NCBI GenBank assembly: GCA_003223325.1
Contig: QHYS01000038.1
Coordinates: 1 to 32,831 of the forward strand
DNA from: Acidobacteriota bacterium
Lineage (GTDB): Bacteria > Acidobacteriota > Terriglobia > Acidiferrales > UBA7541
Direction: 5' to 3'
DNA: 32,831 nucleotides
The notes beneath the pieces were generated by a model. It did not search any database and was not told the DNA's origin. It saw only the letters and a list, made by a program, of their open reading frames with translations. The first letter of the stretch is position 1. Each line of letters begins with the position of its first letter. Shown piece by piece: positions 10,351 through 32,808 of the stretch. The translations under genes and the position numbers were made by a program.

Positions 10351-10617
10351 GCGCGGCCTCCTTCGCGTTAAATTCCGCCCCAGTGTAGCGCCGTTGCGAG
10401 CCCGCTGTCACGCTAAGCCCACCAAAATTCGCGCAATCTGGTGCCCTGCCCCCCACTGTTTCCAGGTCCTCGCACGGAGTGCCATGGGGGTCTTGTCGGC
10501 TCCGAACGCGCGGAGTAGACTCGCTTGAGCGCTCGCGCAGAACCTACAAAGCAATCCTCTCTCTGCCGAGAAAGGGAAAATCTTGTGGGCCCACAAGGGG
10601 CAGTCGACAGGTACATG
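10351..10617. other. Intergenic stretch before the group II intron remnant
   Basis: 267 bases between the small unknown gene and the 5' end of the intron. Short open frames exist on both strands, but none has a ribosome site and a recognisable protein. It should include the 5' exon flank of the intron insertion site; the exon gene is not recognisable. Confidence 0.4.
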
Positions 10618-11280
10618 GTGCGTCCTGAAAGACGCAATGTCCTGGCAGGTGAAAGTCCTGCCCGGGTAAGTGCCGGAGCGCCCGGTAGCAGGCTCCAACC
10701 GGGAGGAGAGATCCGACTGGGCCAAGCGGAGTGTCAAAAGCTTTTTCTACGGAAAGGGGAGCAAACCAGCGGGCCGCAACAATCAGTGAACGCGATAGCC
10801 TCGTCAAATACTCAGCCGAAAGGTGTTTGGGAGAGCCGAGCCGCTCATGTCACGGCGAAGGCAACAAACAACATCATAGACCGGAACGGATGTTGGATCT
10901 CCCCGGGGTCTCAGGCGACGGCACGGTGGGACAGAAGGAGAGAGCCTACCTGGCAGCCGAGTCGTGGCAAAGACCGAGCCTATAAGGTCGGAAGGCTGAA
11001 AGTGCGCGGAGCCGGGAGGGAGTCCGAGGTCCGTAGTACCGAGGAAGGCTTGCAAGAGAACACGCTGGAGGGAACCATGCCGGCAACGGCCAACACCCCC
11101 AACGAAAAAGTACGAGAACTCCAACGCAAGCTATGTGTGTGTGCCAAGCAGAGTAGGACACGGCGTTTTCATGCACTGTATGACCGGATCTACAGGAGTG
11201 ACGTCCTGTGCGAAGCATGGAGGCGAGTGCGCAGCAACCGTGGGGCAGCAGGAGTCGATGCGGAAACCATCCAGGCCATC
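10618..11280 (+). mobile_element. Group II intron, 5' portion only
   Basis: The segment begins GTGCGTCCTGAAAGACGC, a typical group II intron 5' end with an immediate 5-bp hairpin (GCGTC/GACGC). It continues through about 460 nt of structured, purine-rich, non-coding sequence like intron domains I-III before an intron-encoded protein ORF at 11077. The 3' half of the ORF and domains V and VI are absent; the sequence passes directly into an IS607-type recombinase tail near 11280. The intron therefore cannot splice or move by itself. The exact 5' boundary is inferred from the consensus. Confidence 0.75.
11077..11280 (+). pseudogene. Group II intron reverse transcriptase/maturase, N-terminal fragment
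   Basis: ATG 11077 with GGAGG 5 nt upstream starts about 68 residues of a maturase N-terminus: 'EKVRELQRKLCVCAKQS', 'RRFHALYDRIYRSDVL', 'AWRRVRSNRGAAGVDAETIQ'. This is the RT-0 region of bacterial group II intron proteins (LtrA-like). None of the later reverse transcriptase motifs (YxDD), domain X or endonuclease domain follow. The frame runs without a stop across the junction into the recombinase fragment and then ends after a frameshift. Confidence 0.8.
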
Positions 11281-11431
11281 GTGGTGGTTGACGGTGTGGA
11301 GATAACCCGACGATCTTGTGCGTGACCTGCAGGAAGTGATTGTTTGCATGTGCGGCAGGCTGTACGGCAAGAGGGTCACGAAGCATCGAGCCAAGAAAGC
11401 CATCGAGGCCATGCAGTGCGAGTCGTGCTGA
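11281..11431 (+). pseudogene. IS607-type serine recombinase TnpA, C-terminal fragment (frameshifted)
   Basis: Directly after the intron fragment the frame reads VVVDGVEI; one extra base at about 11305 then shifts it, and the next frame continues PDDLVRDLQEVIVCMCGRLYGKRV to a TGA at 11429-11431. This matches the C-terminal end of IS607-family TnpA serine recombinases ('vvVD..E..dDLVrDL.evlts.caRLYGkR'). The catalytic serine domain and the MerR-like DNA-binding domain are missing, so it is inactive. Its stop overlaps the probable tnpB start by 7 nt, the usual arrangement in IS607 elements. Confidence 0.7.
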
Positions 11432-12618
11432 GCCATCGTATCGCGCTTGTCCCCACAGCCAGGCAAGAAGTGTTGTTGCGCCAGGCAGTGGGTGTCTCCC
11501 GCTTTGCTTACAACTGGGCGCTGGCCGAGTGGCAGCGGCAGTACCAAGGGGGCGAAAAACCCAGCGAAGCCGCTCTGCGCCGCCAGCTAGATTCCATCAA
11601 GCGCCAACAGTTTCCGTGGATGCTGTTGATTCCCAAGTCCGTGCCGCAGCAAGCCATCAAGAATTGCGGGGCGGCATTCCGGCGATACTTCCAGAAGCAG
11701 AGCCGCTGTCCTAAGTTCAAGAAGAAAGGCGTGCGCGATTCCGCACGCTTGGACAATGGCCCCGGCACCTTCAAGTTTGACGGCAAGCGAGTCCGTTTGC
11801 CGGTCATTGGCTGGGTGAAACTCAGGGAAGAACTGCGCTTCAGCGGCAAAGCGCTTTCCACCACGGTCCGGCGCGTCGAGGATCGCTGGTTTGTCTGTGT
11901 TCCTGTCGAGGTGGAGATGCCCGAACCTGTCCGCGAAAGCCAAGCGGCAGTAGGCATTGATCTCGGCGTGAGCACGGCGGCGACGCTATCGAGCGGAGAA
12001 AAGCTGGCTGGGCCGAAAGCGCTAGGTGTCCATCTGGAAAGACGGCAAAGGTTTTCCCGGTGGCACAGCCGGAAGCAGAAAGGCAGCAGCAACAGACGCA
12101 AATCGGCCCTGCGTGTGGCCTGCTTGCACGCACGCATCGCGAACGTCCGGCAAGACTGGTTGCACCAGACCACCACACGGCTGGTGCGCCAGTTTGGTGT
12201 GCTGGGCATCGAGGATTTGAACGTGCGGGGCATGATGGCGAGCGAGAAACTGGCCCGGAGGATCGCCGACATCGGCTTTCATGAGTTCCGGTGCCAGCTG
12301 GAGTACAAAGCCAACCTGTACGGGGCGGAGCTGGTGACGGCCAGCCGCTGGTTCCCCAGCAGCAAGATGTGTTGTGAATGCGGTGTGATCGCGGAAGAAC
12401 TACCGTTGTCCCTCCGGGAGTGGACCTGCGCGTGTGGCACGTTCCATGAGCGGGATATTAACGCGGCGAGGAATCTCCGCCGCTACGCACTCGATAGGGC
12501 GAGTTGCGCCCGAATCAACGCCTGTGGAGAGGAGGGCTCTGGCGCTGGTCCTACCGACAGCGTGAAACCGGCCTCGCTGAAGCAGGAATCAGCCATGTCT
12601 TATTTGGGCATGGATTGA
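11425..12618 (+). CDS. tnpB: TnpB RNA-guided endonuclease of an IS607-type element
   Basis: 397 residues from GTG 11425, which overlaps the end of the tnpA remnant; GTG 11416 is also possible. The protein appears complete. It has the N-terminal helix-turn-helix-like start (LVPTARQEVLLRQAVGVSRFAYNWALAEW), the RuvC aspartate in GIDLGVSTAATL, the RuvC glutamate in GIEDLNVRGM, a zinc ribbon (CCECG ... CACG) and the last catalytic aspartate in ERDINAARN. TnpB nucleases use a guide RNA made from the element's right end and keep the element in place by cutting empty sites. The transposase partner is only a fragment, so this copy is a solo TnpB. It ends 35 nt before the aminotransferase start. Confidence 0.9.
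   Translation: MLSHRIALVPTARQEVLLRQAVGVSRFAYNWALAEWQRQYQGGEKPSEAALRRQLDSIKRQQFPWMLLIPKSVPQQAIKNCGAAFRRYFQKQSRCPKFKKKGVRDSARLDNGPGTFKFDGKRVRLPVIGWVKLREELRFSGKALSTTVRRVEDRWFVCVPVEVEMPEPVRESQAAVGIDLGVSTAATLSSGEKLAGPKALGVHLERRQRFSRWHSRKQKGSSNRRKSALRVACLHARIANVRQDWLHQTTTRLVRQFGVLGIEDLNVRGMMASEKLARRIADIGFHEFRCQLEYKANLYGAELVTASRWFPSSKMCCECGVIAEELPLSLREWTCACGTFHERDINAARNLRRYALDRASCARINACGEEGSGAGPTDSVKPASLKQESAMSYLGMD
12594..12614 (+). other. Hairpin at the tnpB 3' end, candidate right-end/guide-RNA element
   Basis: CCATG (12594-12598) pairs with CATGG (12610-12614); extra inner pairs including G-T wobbles extend the stem to about 7. It overlaps the last codons of tnpB. TnpB guide RNAs come from this part of the element, so the hairpin may belong to the guide scaffold, but the element boundary cannot be fixed without relatives. 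Confidence 0.35.
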
Positions 12619-28541: not shown

Positions 28542-28589
28542 CCCAAAACGAAACTGTAACGGAATAGTTTATGGACTCATTTGAGGGAC

Positions 28590-29333
28590 ATGATCAACGC
28601 CAGCTCAAAACGAAACATACGCATTTTTCTGCCGGCTGTGGCGCTCTCCGGCTGCGTGACGCTAATCGCACATTTTCTCAGGCAGCTCGGGCTTTCCTTT
28701 AATCCTGTCCTATGGGCCGGCGCCGAAATCATCGCGGCGCTTCTCGGCTTCACCATTGCGGCAAACATTTTGGTACGATTTCACGGAACGGAAGATCGCT
28801 TCTCGTTGTTCTTGGGGGCGGCGTTCGGGCTCGATGGATTGATCCAGCTGAGCGGGATCGTGCAGCTCCACGGAGAGTCGTTAAGCGGGACGACCACTGT
28901 GCGTGTTCCGATCTACTGGATGGCTGGCGGGACATTGCTGGGCGTGCTTTTATTAGCGGCCCTTGCACTGGATAAATGGCTGCCCTGGCCGCGGCAGTCC
29001 AGCAGGACAATTCTCGCAGTGCTGAGCGTTGTGGGGGCCATTGCCGGCATGATGGGGCTGCTGTTTCTGGTGCTGGGCAACGGGCCTATGATTCGAGGTA
29101 CCAGGCCGGTGCCGCGCCCCTGGGACCTGTTACCGGCGGCAATGTTCCTGACCGGCACCATCCTTTTGTATCGCAGTCCGTACCAGCTTAGCTCCGCTGT
29201 TGGAGGCTCGCTGCCATGGGTGGTGGGGATGAATGCCGCGTGTCATCTGACAGCCGCACAATCGGCTCAGTTGCTGGATGCACCGGCGCTCACGGCGCAG
29301 CAGCGGTTATACCGATATCGGCATAACCGCTGA
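28590..29333 (+). pseudogene. Membrane sensor protein truncated by the RIT element
   Basis: ATG 28590 (a TTG at 28581 is also in frame) starts about 247 residues. At least six hydrophobic helices are visible (FLPAVALSGCVTLIAHFL; VLWAGAEIIAALLGFTIAANIL; SLFLGAAFGLDGLIQLSGIV; IYWMAGGTLLGVLLLAALAL; ILAVLSVVGAIAGMMGLLFLVLG; an LLPAAMFLTGTILL helix). This resembles the N-terminal membrane sensing domain of histidine kinases or diguanylate cyclases. The last readable native residues are about HLTAAQSAQLLDAPALTAQ; the frame then enters the palindrome at the mobile element's left end and stops at 29333 with no kinase or GGDEF output domain. Loss of the output domain is inferred; an intact relative would confirm it. 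Confidence 0.65.
29302..29331. repeat. Near-perfect palindrome at the left edge of the RIT element
   Basis: 30 bp with arms AGCGGTTAT and ATAACCGCT around a CCGATATCGG core; only one symmetric base pair position departs from the palindrome. It contains two inverted copies of the 9-mer TTATrCCGA separated by TA, and its right end overlaps the first bases of the terminal inverted repeat. Confidence 0.8.
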
Positions 29334-29436
29334 CATGCCGAGTCCCGGATTATGCCGAATCTGGCGAGGTGGCTCTTCTGTCCTCTGCGTTTGGCGCTAC
29401 TTTCCGCACTTTTCAGACTGATTAAACTCGGCATAA
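29318..29436. repeat. Left-end recombinase core sites (TCGGCATAA, three copies)
   Basis: TCGGCATAA occurs at 29318-29326 and 29428-29436, and its reverse complement TTATGCCGA at 29350-29358. Two more copies lie at the right end (32639-32647 and 32694-32702). These are probable binding half-sites for the element's tyrosine recombinases; binding is inferred from position and symmetry. Confidence 0.65.
29327..29360 (+). repeat. RIT left terminal inverted repeat (34 bp)
   Basis: Starts CCGCTGACATGCCGAGTCCC and ends TTATGCCGAAT; every base matches the reverse complement of 32692-32725. Confidence 0.9.
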
Positions 29437-29484
29437 TCCGTCTATCTTCCCCTTGCTGGCGTACAGCCAGTAAGGAGGAGATAC

Positions 29485-30714
29485 ATGATTGGAAGTTCTT
29501 TCCAAAACCTGGTAGCAGTCAACCGTCTTCCCGACCCACTCATTGTCCAGCTTCGGAGATTCACCTCCTCGCTGATAGAGCAAGGTTACGCAGATAAGAC
29601 GGTGCGATTGAAAGTAAAGCTGATTACGAATTTTGTGCAGTGGCTGAAACGAAACAGAGTCGCTGTTGCAGATCTTGATGAGCGGCTGGTGGAGGCATTT
29701 CTCAAGCGCAAGCACCGAGAGCGCGAGGGCGGTTTAAGAACCCTCCAGGAGTTTCTCGATCATCTGCGGAGGCAGAACGTTGTTCCAGCTCGGAATCTGC
29801 CTTGTGACAGGTCACCGCTGGCTCACATTCTCAACCGCTACGAAACACATTTGCGTACAGAGCGCGGGCTGGTCGCCCACACGATCCTGGAATACCAATC
29901 TTTCGTTCGTAAGTTTCTCCTGAAGCGCTTTCGCGGCCAACCGCTTCTTCTGAAAGCCGTGAAAGCTTCCGATATTTCAGACTTTGTTTTGCGGCACACC
30001 GGCGGCATGAGTGTCAAAAGCGCGCAACTGATGACGACGGCTTTCCGCTCTTTCTTCCGGTTCCTGTTTCATAAAGGAGAACTGCAAACTGACTTGGCCG
30101 GTTCGGTGCCCACGGTGGCGAATTGGCGGCTGTCCACCGTGCCCAAATACCTGACTCCGCAGGAAGTCGAACGTGTGCTCAAGGCCTGTGACCGCCGCAC
30201 CTCGGTCGGTCGCCGCGACTACGCCATCCTTCTTCTACTAGCCCGTCTGGGTCTTCGCGCAGGGGAAGTATTCGGTCTCCAGCTCGAGGACATCAACTGG
30301 AGAGCCGGCGAAATCCTCGTTCGAGGCAAGGGACTGCTTCACGAACGGATGCCTGTGCCTTCAGATGTGGGCCAGGCCCTGACATCCTACCTGCGTCGCG
30401 GTCGTCCCGCTTGTCAAACACGCCGAGTATTCGTTCGCATGAGGGCGCCACGCCGGGGCTTTGCGAACCCTGCCACTCTGTCGGGGATCGTTCGCCGAGC
30501 ACTCGCTCGCGCAGACTTACATCCTCCTCGCCGGGGAGCCCACTTGCTTCGTCACAGCCTAGCGACTTCCATGTTGCGCTCCGGGGCCACCATGAGGGAA
30601 ATCGCAGAGATCCTTCGGCACCGAGCAATCAACTCAACGGAGATCTACGCCAAGGTCGACTTCCAGGGCCTGCGGTCACTGGCTCACCCCTGGCCGATGG
30701 GAGGTGGACAGTGA
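29485..30714 (+). CDS. ritA: Tyrosine recombinase RitA of the RIT element
   Basis: 409 residues, with AGGAGG 6 nt before the ATG. An N-terminal SAM-like DNA-binding domain (LIEQGYADKTVRLKVKLITNFVQWL), a second core-binding segment (RGLVAHTILEYQSFVRKFLL) and the catalytic domain from about residue 225 are present. Catalytic residues are R in LGLRAGEVFGL, H-x-x-R in HLLRHSLATSML, H in LRHRAINST and the nucleophile Y in EIYAKVD. The longer N-terminus, with two helical modules, fits the first recombinase of RIT trios. Its stop overlaps the ritB start as GTGA (30711-30714). Confidence 0.9.
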   Translation: MIGSSFQNLVAVNRLPDPLIVQLRRFTSSLIEQGYADKTVRLKVKLITNFVQWLKRNRVAVADLDERLVEAFLKRKHREREGGLRTLQEFLDHLRRQNVVPARNLPCDRSPLAHILNRYETHLRTERGLVAHTILEYQSFVRKFLLKRFRGQPLLLKAVKASDISDFVLRHTGGMSVKSAQLMTTAFRSFFRFLFHKGELQTDLAGSVPTVANWRLSTVPKYLTPQEVERVLKACDRRTSVGRRDYAILLLLARLGLRAGEVFGLQLEDINWRAGEILVRGKGLLHERMPVPSDVGQALTSYLRRGRPACQTRRVFVRMRAPRRGFANPATLSGIVRRALARADLHPPRRGAHLLRHSLATSMLRSGATMREIAEILRHRAINSTEIYAKVDFQGLRSLAHPWPMGGGQ

Positions 30715-31646
30715 AGTCCCTGAAACAGGCATTGAAGGACTACCTCCGCATCCGCCGCAGCCTCGGGTTCCGGCTCCGGAACGAGGAAGGTTCGTTGCGG
30801 AATTTTGTGGCTTTTCTCCACTCCGCGCGTGCGCCTTACATCACCAGGGAACTGGCTCTTCGCTGGGCCACACAGCCCGCCACGGCCCAACCCGCTACCT
30901 GGGCTGGGCACTTAAGGATGATCCGGCGCTTCGCCATTTGGCATAGCGCCAGCGAACCGCGCACCGAGATTCCCCCCGTAGGGATTCTCCCGCATCGGTA
31001 CCGACGCAAGTCCCCTCACATCTATAGCGACGAAGAGATTGAAAAACTCCTTCGCCGAGCTCAACAACTCCCCTCTCCCAAGGGACTCCGCGCCCTCACC
31101 TATACGACCCTTTTCGGCTTGCTGGTAGCAACAGGAATGCGGGTGAACGAAGCCTTGGGTCTGAACCGGTCCGATGTCGACCTCCAACTCGGCATCCTTC
31201 ATATCCGATGGGCGAAGTTCGGAAAATCGCGTTATGTTCCGGTTCACGCTTCCACTGTAGAGGCTTTGAAAAAGTACGCCGAAACCCGAGATCGCCTTTT
31301 TCCTGCACCTCTCACTCTGACGTTCTTTATCTCCGAACACGGCCGCCGGATGACAGGCTACATGGCACGATACACCTTTGCCAAAGTGTCCCAACAACTC
31401 GGCCTCCGCGCCCCAGCCAAAGGTTCCGGCTGTGGTCCCCGGCTGCAGGACATGCGTCATCGATTCGCCACCCGCACCTTGATCCACTGGTATCGCTCCG
31501 GGCTCGACGTCGAACGGGAACTCCCCAAGCTGTCCACCTACCTGGGGCACGTCCACGTGAACGACACCTATTGGTACCTTCAAGCCGTGCCTGAACTCCT
31601 TCAGCTGGCTACCGACCGGTTGACTCCGCGGGAGGTGCAACCGTGA
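30711..31646 (+). CDS. ritB: Tyrosine recombinase RitB of the RIT element
   Basis: 311 residues from GTG 30711, supported by GGAGG 6 nt upstream and by the GTGA overlap with ritA; the frame is open 100 codons further upstream, but that part is antiparallel shadow of ritA. The N-terminal domain (LKDYLRIRRSLGFRLRNEEGSL) is followed by the catalytic core: R in TGMRVNEALGL, the beta-hairpin lysine region AKFGKSRYVPV, H-x-x-R given as DMRHRFATRTL (here R-H-R), H in LGHVHVNDTYWYL and the probable nucleophile Y in that same block. It overlaps ritC by GTGA (31643-31646), so all three recombinases are translationally coupled. Confidence 0.9.
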   Translation: MKSLKQALKDYLRIRRSLGFRLRNEEGSLRNFVAFLHSARAPYITRELALRWATQPATAQPATWAGHLRMIRRFAIWHSASEPRTEIPPVGILPHRYRRKSPHIYSDEEIEKLLRRAQQLPSPKGLRALTYTTLFGLLVATGMRVNEALGLNRSDVDLQLGILHIRWAKFGKSRYVPVHASTVEALKKYAETRDRLFPAPLTLTFFISEHGRRMTGYMARYTFAKVSQQLGLRAPAKGSGCGPRLQDMRHRFATRTLIHWYRSGLDVERELPKLSTYLGHVHVNDTYWYLQAVPELLQLATDRLTPREVQP

Positions 31647-32638
31647 TGATCGCCAGCTTTCCTTCTTTCCTCCAAGCTTTCTTCACCGATCGTTTGCTTC
31701 GCCAGCGGCAAGCGAGCCCACATACCGTAGCGGGATATCGCGATTCGTTTCGCCTGCTGCTGAAATTCGCCAAAGAACGACTCCGCAAAAGCCCATCCCA
31801 ACTCCGCATCGAAGACCTTGATGCTCCCTTCCTTGGTCTCTTCCTCGAGCACCTGGAAAGCACTCGCAAAAACAGCGCTCGTACGCGGAACGTTCGGTTG
31901 GGAGCCATCCACTCTTTCTTCCGGTACGTGGCTTTGGAAGAACCCGCGCATGCCTTGCATTGCCAGCGGATCCTGGCGGTGCCCAATAAGCGCCACGTAC
32001 GAAAACCGATCGAATTTCTCAACCGAGAGGAGATCGATGCACTGCTCGCGGCTCCGAATCGTTCCACCTGGATAGGGCGTCGGGATCGAACCTTTATCCT
32101 GGTCGCGGTCCAAACCGGTCTGCGGGTTTCCGAGTTGATTGGGCTGAATTGCCAGGATGTCGCGCTGGGAACCGGTGCCCACGTGCGCTGTCTCGGGAAA
32201 GGCAGAAAACTGCGTTGCACGCCACTCCGTCCAGAAACGACAAAGATGGTAGGTGCATGGCTAAGGGAGCGCCACGGTCAGCCAGAGGATCCAGTCTTTC
32301 CGAGCATCCGTGGCGGCAGACTCAGTCGCGATGCGATCGAGTACCTCCTCACCAAATACGCCCATCTGGCCGCGCGGAGTTGCCCGTCGCTCAAACGGAA
32401 GAAGGTCACCCCACATGTCTGTCGGCACGCCGCCGCCATGGACCTTCTCCACCACGGTGTGGATCGCTCGGTGATCGCACTCTGGCTGGGGCACGAATCT
32501 CCGGAAACAACCAACGTGTATCTCCACGCGGACATGCGTTTGAAGGAGAAAGCGCTCTCGTGCACTGAGCCCCTCGGCGTCAAGCCAACACGATACCGTC
32601 CAGATGACAAGCTGTTGGCCTTCCTGGAAGGCCTCTGA
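31643..32638 (+). CDS. ritC: Tyrosine recombinase RitC of the RIT element
   Basis: 331 residues from GTG 31643 (an ATG follows as the next codon), with GGAGG 8 nt upstream. A SAM-like domain (QRQASPHTVAGYRDSFRLLLKFA) precedes the catalytic domain: R in TGLRVSELIGL, K in LGKGRKLRCTPL, H-x-x-R in HVCRHAAAMDLL, H in LGHESPETT and the nucleophile in VYLHADM. All catalytic residues are present. The stop lies directly before the right-end copy of TTATGCCGA, so no cargo gene fits between ritC and the element end. Confidence 0.9.
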   Translation: MMIASFPSFLQAFFTDRLLRQRQASPHTVAGYRDSFRLLLKFAKERLRKSPSQLRIEDLDAPFLGLFLEHLESTRKNSARTRNVRLGAIHSFFRYVALEEPAHALHCQRILAVPNKRHVRKPIEFLNREEIDALLAAPNRSTWIGRRDRTFILVAVQTGLRVSELIGLNCQDVALGTGAHVRCLGKGRKLRCTPLRPETTKMVGAWLRERHGQPEDPVFPSIRGGRLSRDAIEYLLTKYAHLAARSCPSLKRKKVTPHVCRHAAAMDLLHHGVDRSVIALWLGHESPETTNVYLHADMRLKEKALSCTEPLGVKPTRYRPDDKLLAFLEGL

Positions 32639-32702
32639 TTATGCCGAATGAGAACATGGCTCGATCTCCTCCAGCCGAGGTATTGAAAAGAATTCGGCAT
32701 AA
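32639..32702. repeat. Right-end recombinase core sites
   Basis: TTATGCCGA at 32639-32647, directly after the ritC stop, and TCGGCATAA at 32694-32702 inside the terminal repeat. The pair mirrors the inner and outer copies at the left end. Confidence 0.65.
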
Positions 32703-32725
32703 TCCGGGACTCGGCATGTCAGCGG
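32692..32725 (-). repeat. RIT right terminal inverted repeat (34 bp)
   Basis: Exact reverse complement of 29327-29360; reads ATTCGGCATAATCCGGGACT at its left part. Confidence 0.9.
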
Positions 32726-32808
32726 AGAGCGATGATGGTGTTTGCGCCCTTTACGGTCCAATGCATGCCCGCGCGCTTGAGCCGGGTGCCGATCACCACT
32801 TTACAGCC
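32719..32808 (-). pseudogene. ISKra4-like transposase scrap
   Basis: The minus strand encodes NGCKVVIGTRLKRAGMHWTV and then KGANTIIALR before a TGA that lies in the RIT terminal repeat. This resembles the conserved 'GCK.VIG.RLKRSGMhW...GAN.I.ALRC' block near the C-terminus of ISKra4-family transposases. Only about 30 residues remain in the window; an in-frame TAA lies just upstream in the flanking palindrome. The missing C-terminal part is not found at the RIT left flank. Confidence 0.5.

Follow-up and report, generated by a model that had tools for sequence, protein, structure and literature searches.

Recombinase-in-trio (RIT) elements, as described by Van Houdt (2009, 2012), carry three tyrosine recombinase genes in the order ritA-ritB-ritC, joined by short overlaps, on about 3.4-3.5 kb of DNA closed by terminal inverted repeats of ~34 bp, and RIT insertions in IS66 and radC have been reported for C. 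metallidurans. Van Houdt (2012) also recorded an inverted repeat of 28-9 bp together with an 'overlapping palindromic sequence', to which no role was assigned. How RITs move and why they have three recombinases has been open since the first description, and according to a 2023 paper (PMC10214605) neither their target specificity nor the empty site nor their movement has been tested.

We analyzed a 32,831-nt stretch of DNA from an Acidobacteriota bacterium (hereafter the window), that is, contig C300 of the 6.1-Mb draft genome G000, which ends 106 bp past the right arm of an element sharing this layout. A genome search revealed this to be the sole full RIT copy in G000, with a partial RIT on contig C30. 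Elsewhere in the window, positions 10643-10784 (+) match the Rfam group II intron model D1-D4 (RF02003) and adjoin long ORFs at 10525-12618. The element comprises ritA (29485-30714; 409 aa), ritB (30711-31646; 311 aa) and ritC (31643-32638; 331 aa), all on the + strand, the latter two with GTG starts, and both gene joints (30711 and 31643) consist of a GTGA overlap, within the 4-8 bp that typify the three adjacent, same-direction recombinase genes of RITs. The trio lies between 34-nt inverted arms (29327-29360 and 32692-32725) that are 3331 nt apart and 100% complementary, RIT repeats being of about 28-34 bp, and the ORF list holds no further gene between them. RitA, RitB and RitC all matched Phage_integrase (PF00589) in Pfam. 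Two core-binding domains are a mark of RitA (PMC8138268), and the window RitA has two N-terminal SAM-like matches, SAM_1 at residues 116-198 and, slightly under its gathering score, a weaker SAM_4 at 24-81. RitC extends by more than 30 residues past the catalytic Tyr in its sequence, where RITs have an extra C-terminal helix, and the fourth conserved gene of srap/ginD type that defines SE/GInt elements is lacking. The window element is a RIT, a new member of an already-known kind, and the perfect repeats, trio order, two GTGA overlaps and absence of cargo that a sequence-only reading had put forward together with this identity were all borne out.

That reading had further held all catalytic motifs to be present. 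The R-K-HxxR-H-Y set is indeed complete in RitA and RitC, whereas RitB has QDMRH in place of the HDxRH of most RitBs. A possible catalytic motif is found in all three proteins, with Gln for the HxxR His in RitB. The same replacement occurs in L043, L051, L052, L057, L079 and L102. A terminal repeat without the trio, named beforehand as a sign against RIT identity, does exist at positions 41827-42008 of contig C69 in G000, as a 75%-identical relic made of the ritC 3' end and the right RIT end; since this is a decayed copy, the identity stands.

The same reading took this copy to define both ends of the element, a point that has to be revised. Just outside the left repeat lies a 20-bp palindrome (PAL), TTATACCGATATCGGCATAA, at 29307-29326, in the same position as in relatives, which we infer to be made of back-to-back recombination arms and to belong to the mobile unit. 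The overall palindrome CAGCGGTTATACCGAT/ATCGGCATAACCGCTG spans 29301-29332, overlapping the left arm, and scored 13, against a maximum of 9.75 among 1920 shuffled flanks. With the palindrome counted into the unit, and only then, the target core becomes visible as a direct repeat of 6 bp, CAGCGG, at 29301-29306 (core3, on the PAL side) and at 32720-32725, and joining of the flanks makes the two copies overlap. The 34-bp ends themselves show no direct repeat, and we therefore rejected an ordinary inverted-repeat transposon that conventionally duplicates its target there. Judging from the sequence, the mobile unit most likely runs from 29307 to 32725, outer palindrome included, and the 34-bp repeats are not its true ends.

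Within the left repeat, the inner core CCGCTG (29327-29332) is followed by site a (ATGCCGA, 29335-29341) and site b (ATGCCGA, 29352-29358), and the right repeat carries sites b and a and then the core CAGCGG. An inner inverted site c lies on the left at 29428-29440 (TCGGCATAATCCG), 94 bp from site a, and its counterpart on the right at 32636-32647 (TGATTATGCCGA) overlaps the ritC stop codon. Alignment of relatives from the genome scans revealed that all GCCG-type elements (15/15) keep sites a and b precisely 17 bp apart on either end, and that 2 bp separate site a from a 6-bp core that differs between elements. Inverted site c is located ~72, 83, 94 or 116 bp from site a, in steps of roughly one helical turn, and on the ritC end 14 of the 15 elements have it overlapping the ritC stop codon.

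These scans uncovered RIT relatives in several phyla and in different targets, an indirect sign of mobility. Many of the loci are draft or metagenome contigs, in which chimaeras are possible. Palindromes were scored in 24 two-ended elements against 40 dinucleotide shuffles per flank (1920 in total; 99% and 99.9% levels of 7.0 and 9.0, respectively). Above 9.0, the cut-off set in the script, 14 of the 24 elements have a palindrome on exactly one side; at scores of at least 7.0, a level chosen afterwards that leaves 14 as the stricter count, the one-sided palindrome is found in 19/24, on the ritA side in 11 and on the ritC side in 8. Palindromes on both sides were detected in none of the 24 at either level. 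Lack of a palindrome at 7.0 is restricted to L043, L045, L085 (the left flank of which is also unrecognised) and one L103 element, and L160 is a further exception, with imperfect palindromes discernible by eye at both ends. The same anatomy recurs on closed plasmids of Rhodococcus, Paraburkholderia, Acidiphilium, Mesorhizobium and Bradyrhizobium, and IMG/VR contigs picked by the end motif alone have one palindrome (L171, L173, L175, L182 and L184) or none (L183). The sequence-only reading had taken the identical ends to suggest recent movement. Relatives often have arms that are identical or nearly so, and such arms hence say little on age; better evidence for such movement is a near-identical copy in another genome of the family (L075; 98.2% over 113 bp), with PAL on the right and not on the left as in the window.

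An exact-palindrome search of viral contigs returned no matches, and a looser palindrome pattern returned 20 loci. One pattern search hit 13 places versus 6 in its control, which implies that about half of its matches may be due to chance, and the ambiguous lone-palindrome matches L110, L112, L114 and L121 were left out. At positions 75-94 of L120, a single palindrome is flanked on either side by RIT-like ends, an arrangement that a circle junction or tandem copies would produce. In genome G505, a palindrome adjoins a RIT-like end at L073/L077 and L071/L076 while rit genes are absent, which may represent a relic or miniature element.

Inspection of 31 distinct PAL-core-RIT junctions yielded CGGCATAA-N6-TNATGCCG or close variants, a number that gives the frequency of this geometry and not its exclusivity, for the pattern demanded a 6-bp core and other spacings would escape; junctions read independently of this fixed pattern have the same 6-bp spacing. 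The core ends in CA at 23 of these 31 junctions, that of the window not being among them. PAL arms mostly resemble the terminal motif of their own element, also where this is one of the variants TATGTC and TTCCG. L050, L052, L079, L086, L093, L165, L171 and L173 have equal cores at both target junctions, and L048, L162, L168, L175, L182 and L184, all of them standard elements, have unequal ones.

We then left PAL and RIT out and merged the outer flanks at the shared core. This restored a long open frame across the junction in L044, L050, L052, L086, L092, L093, L165, L171 and L173. The proteins regained are an IS66 transposase (L052 and L079, and L051 with a small gap), an rve transposase (L044), an integron integrase (L086 and L093), another tyrosine recombinase matching Phage_integrase (L092), ArdC (L165) and DUF3489 (L171 and L173), and the joined frame of L050, of 608 aa, has no Pfam match. 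Further targets are ritB box II, recognised by eye in L048 and L167, RadC (L094) and a gene matching rve and Mu-type transposase models (L161). Automatic joining was poor or gave no clean frame in L001, L091, L168, L182 and L184. DUF3489 genes of IMG/VR contigs are interrupted at GWQxH in L171, L173, L175, L182, L183 and L184, and PAL occupies opposite ends of the element (ritA vs ritC end) in L171/L173/L182/L184 and in L175. Like known RITs, the relatives are thus found in IS66 tnpA and radC, and the set examined, which was not randomly drawn, shows an apparent tendency towards conserved motifs of mobile-element and plasmid genes, including those of other RITs (ritB).

The flanks of the window element are different genes and not halves of one target. 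On the right, positions 32722-32808 (−) encode the 5' part of the target, an ISKra4-like transposase gene, matched over residues 423-451 and cut after ...IIALR. On the left, a MASE-GGDEF diguanylate cyclase gene (28581-29303, +) is truncated at about residue 241, where the element begins. The left flank was also considered as the ISKra4 3' half, which was ruled out by its identification as the MASE-GGDEF gene. An intact ortholog of the latter is present in G001, a genome of the same genus, and its GGDEF half was not found in the window's own assembly at ortholog identity (best match, 59%). Deletion or flank exchange could explain the left flank. At the contig end (32808-32831), the palindrome CGTTACGCATTTAAAAGCGTAACG stands where the ISKra4-like gene has conserved residues immediately before GCK, and is perhaps a second insertion.

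We propose that the RIT mobile unit comprises the palindrome and the inverted-repeat trio (29307-32725 in the window), with two attP sites around PAL, one of which is retained upon insertion and can be reused, and we give this reading a probability of roughly 0.7. The anatomy, the 6-bp and 17-bp spacings, the one-PAL rule with its exceptions, many restored frames and examples of two product classes are read directly from the sequences. The recombinases would act at two inverted arms around the 6-bp core, one arm provided by PAL and the other by the RIT end, such that PAL-core-RIT end constitutes an attP, of which each element would have two. As two arms back to back, PAL would form an attP on each side, in opposite orientation, and either of them could exchange at the core with the target to generate T5'-core-RIT-core-PAL-core-T3', the attP used determining whether PAL comes to lie beside ritA or beside ritC. 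The insert would retain one intact attP (RIT-core-PAL) and could therefore recombine again, now with a second target, an exchange predicted to leave the RIT with a 5' target half on either side and a lone PAL flanked by 3' halves on both sides. The order of events, a circular intermediate, the Rit protein acting at each place and the double-strand route of exchange are conjectured from these observations.

Examples of both predicted products were identified. In L043 and L045 each flank is a ritB 5' half that ends at HD(F/L/W)R, and the junction sequences of L183 correspond to two different DUF3489 5' halves, one of the two being confirmed in frame and by Pfam. This class was known before the model and helped to shape it; L074 was examined after lone PALs had been predicted. 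Both sides of the lone PAL in L074, the only one with both flanks identified, match residues 451-467 of the ISKra4-like transposase on opposite strands, with 17 residues per match, and these residues continue from the 423-451 match of the window right flank. One flank could be identified for each of the further lone palindromes L116 and L187/L193.

The palindrome might instead have been present in the target beforehand, or be a terminator, with RITs inserting next to it and the 34-bp repeats being the true ends, an idea that accommodates its position outside the repeat and the elements without any palindrome (L043, L045 and L085). However, in many cases the flanks joined without PAL and RIT encode uninterrupted conserved proteins, which means that the palindrome was absent from the original target, and both the similarity of PAL arms to the element's own terminal motif, variants included, and the constant 6-bp spacing also speak against this idea, rendering it very improbable.

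A palindrome belonging to the mobile unit could also travel by single-strand copy-out/copy-in, the route suggested for SE elements and Tn554, being carried or regenerated in each round, and not by double-strand exchange through a two-attP circle. The element encodes tyrosine recombinases only, and where an element has unequal 6-bp cores at its junctions, this recalls the fingerprint/footprint rule of SEs (PMC10214605). Such a route is nonetheless unlikely in our view, given the elements with equal cores at both target junctions and the two-5'-half and lone-PAL products, which are simplest as reciprocal exchange. We similarly doubt that the two-5'-half elements stem from homologous recombination of RIT copies whose PALs lie at opposite ends rather than from second use of attP. 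Homologous recombination predicts zero-PAL and double-PAL elements, and L160 does look like the latter, but it offers no direct route to a lone PAL between two 3' halves, as in L074.

Collectively, the comparison of relatives suggests how RITs may choose targets, insert either way round and keep rearranging the surrounding DNA. Reuse of the retained attP leads to a broader proposition, towards which we lean with less confidence: RITs would be two-faced, with PAL partnering both ends, every insertion keeping a live attP and every copy able to join two target genes, the targets being conserved motifs of other mobile elements, rival RITs included. The model could explain RIT-in-RIT nests and mismatched flanks, and the palindrome-inclusive unit would correct the annotation of RIT ends. 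Given an attP of defined layout (two inverted arms plus a 6-bp core), a tendency in target choice and side products that can be predicted, RIT movement becomes testable in the laboratory.

Tn916/CTnDOT-type elements carry a short core, the coupling sequence, between sites, as proposed here for RITs; the RIT core differs in being 6 bp long between symmetric arms, with two att sites around a palindrome. In the excerpts available on SE/GInt elements and Tn554, several tyrosine recombinases likewise act together and integration occurs within genes, and SEs share the 6-bp spacer with RITs. According to the same excerpts, SE/GInt and Tn554 differ in having a further conserved gene of another kind, and no comparable palindrome is mentioned there. 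The attP model is the part that is possibly new, some of which Ricker (2013) may describe, and unlike Van Houdt (2012) it assigns the palindrome to attP and to the mobile unit.
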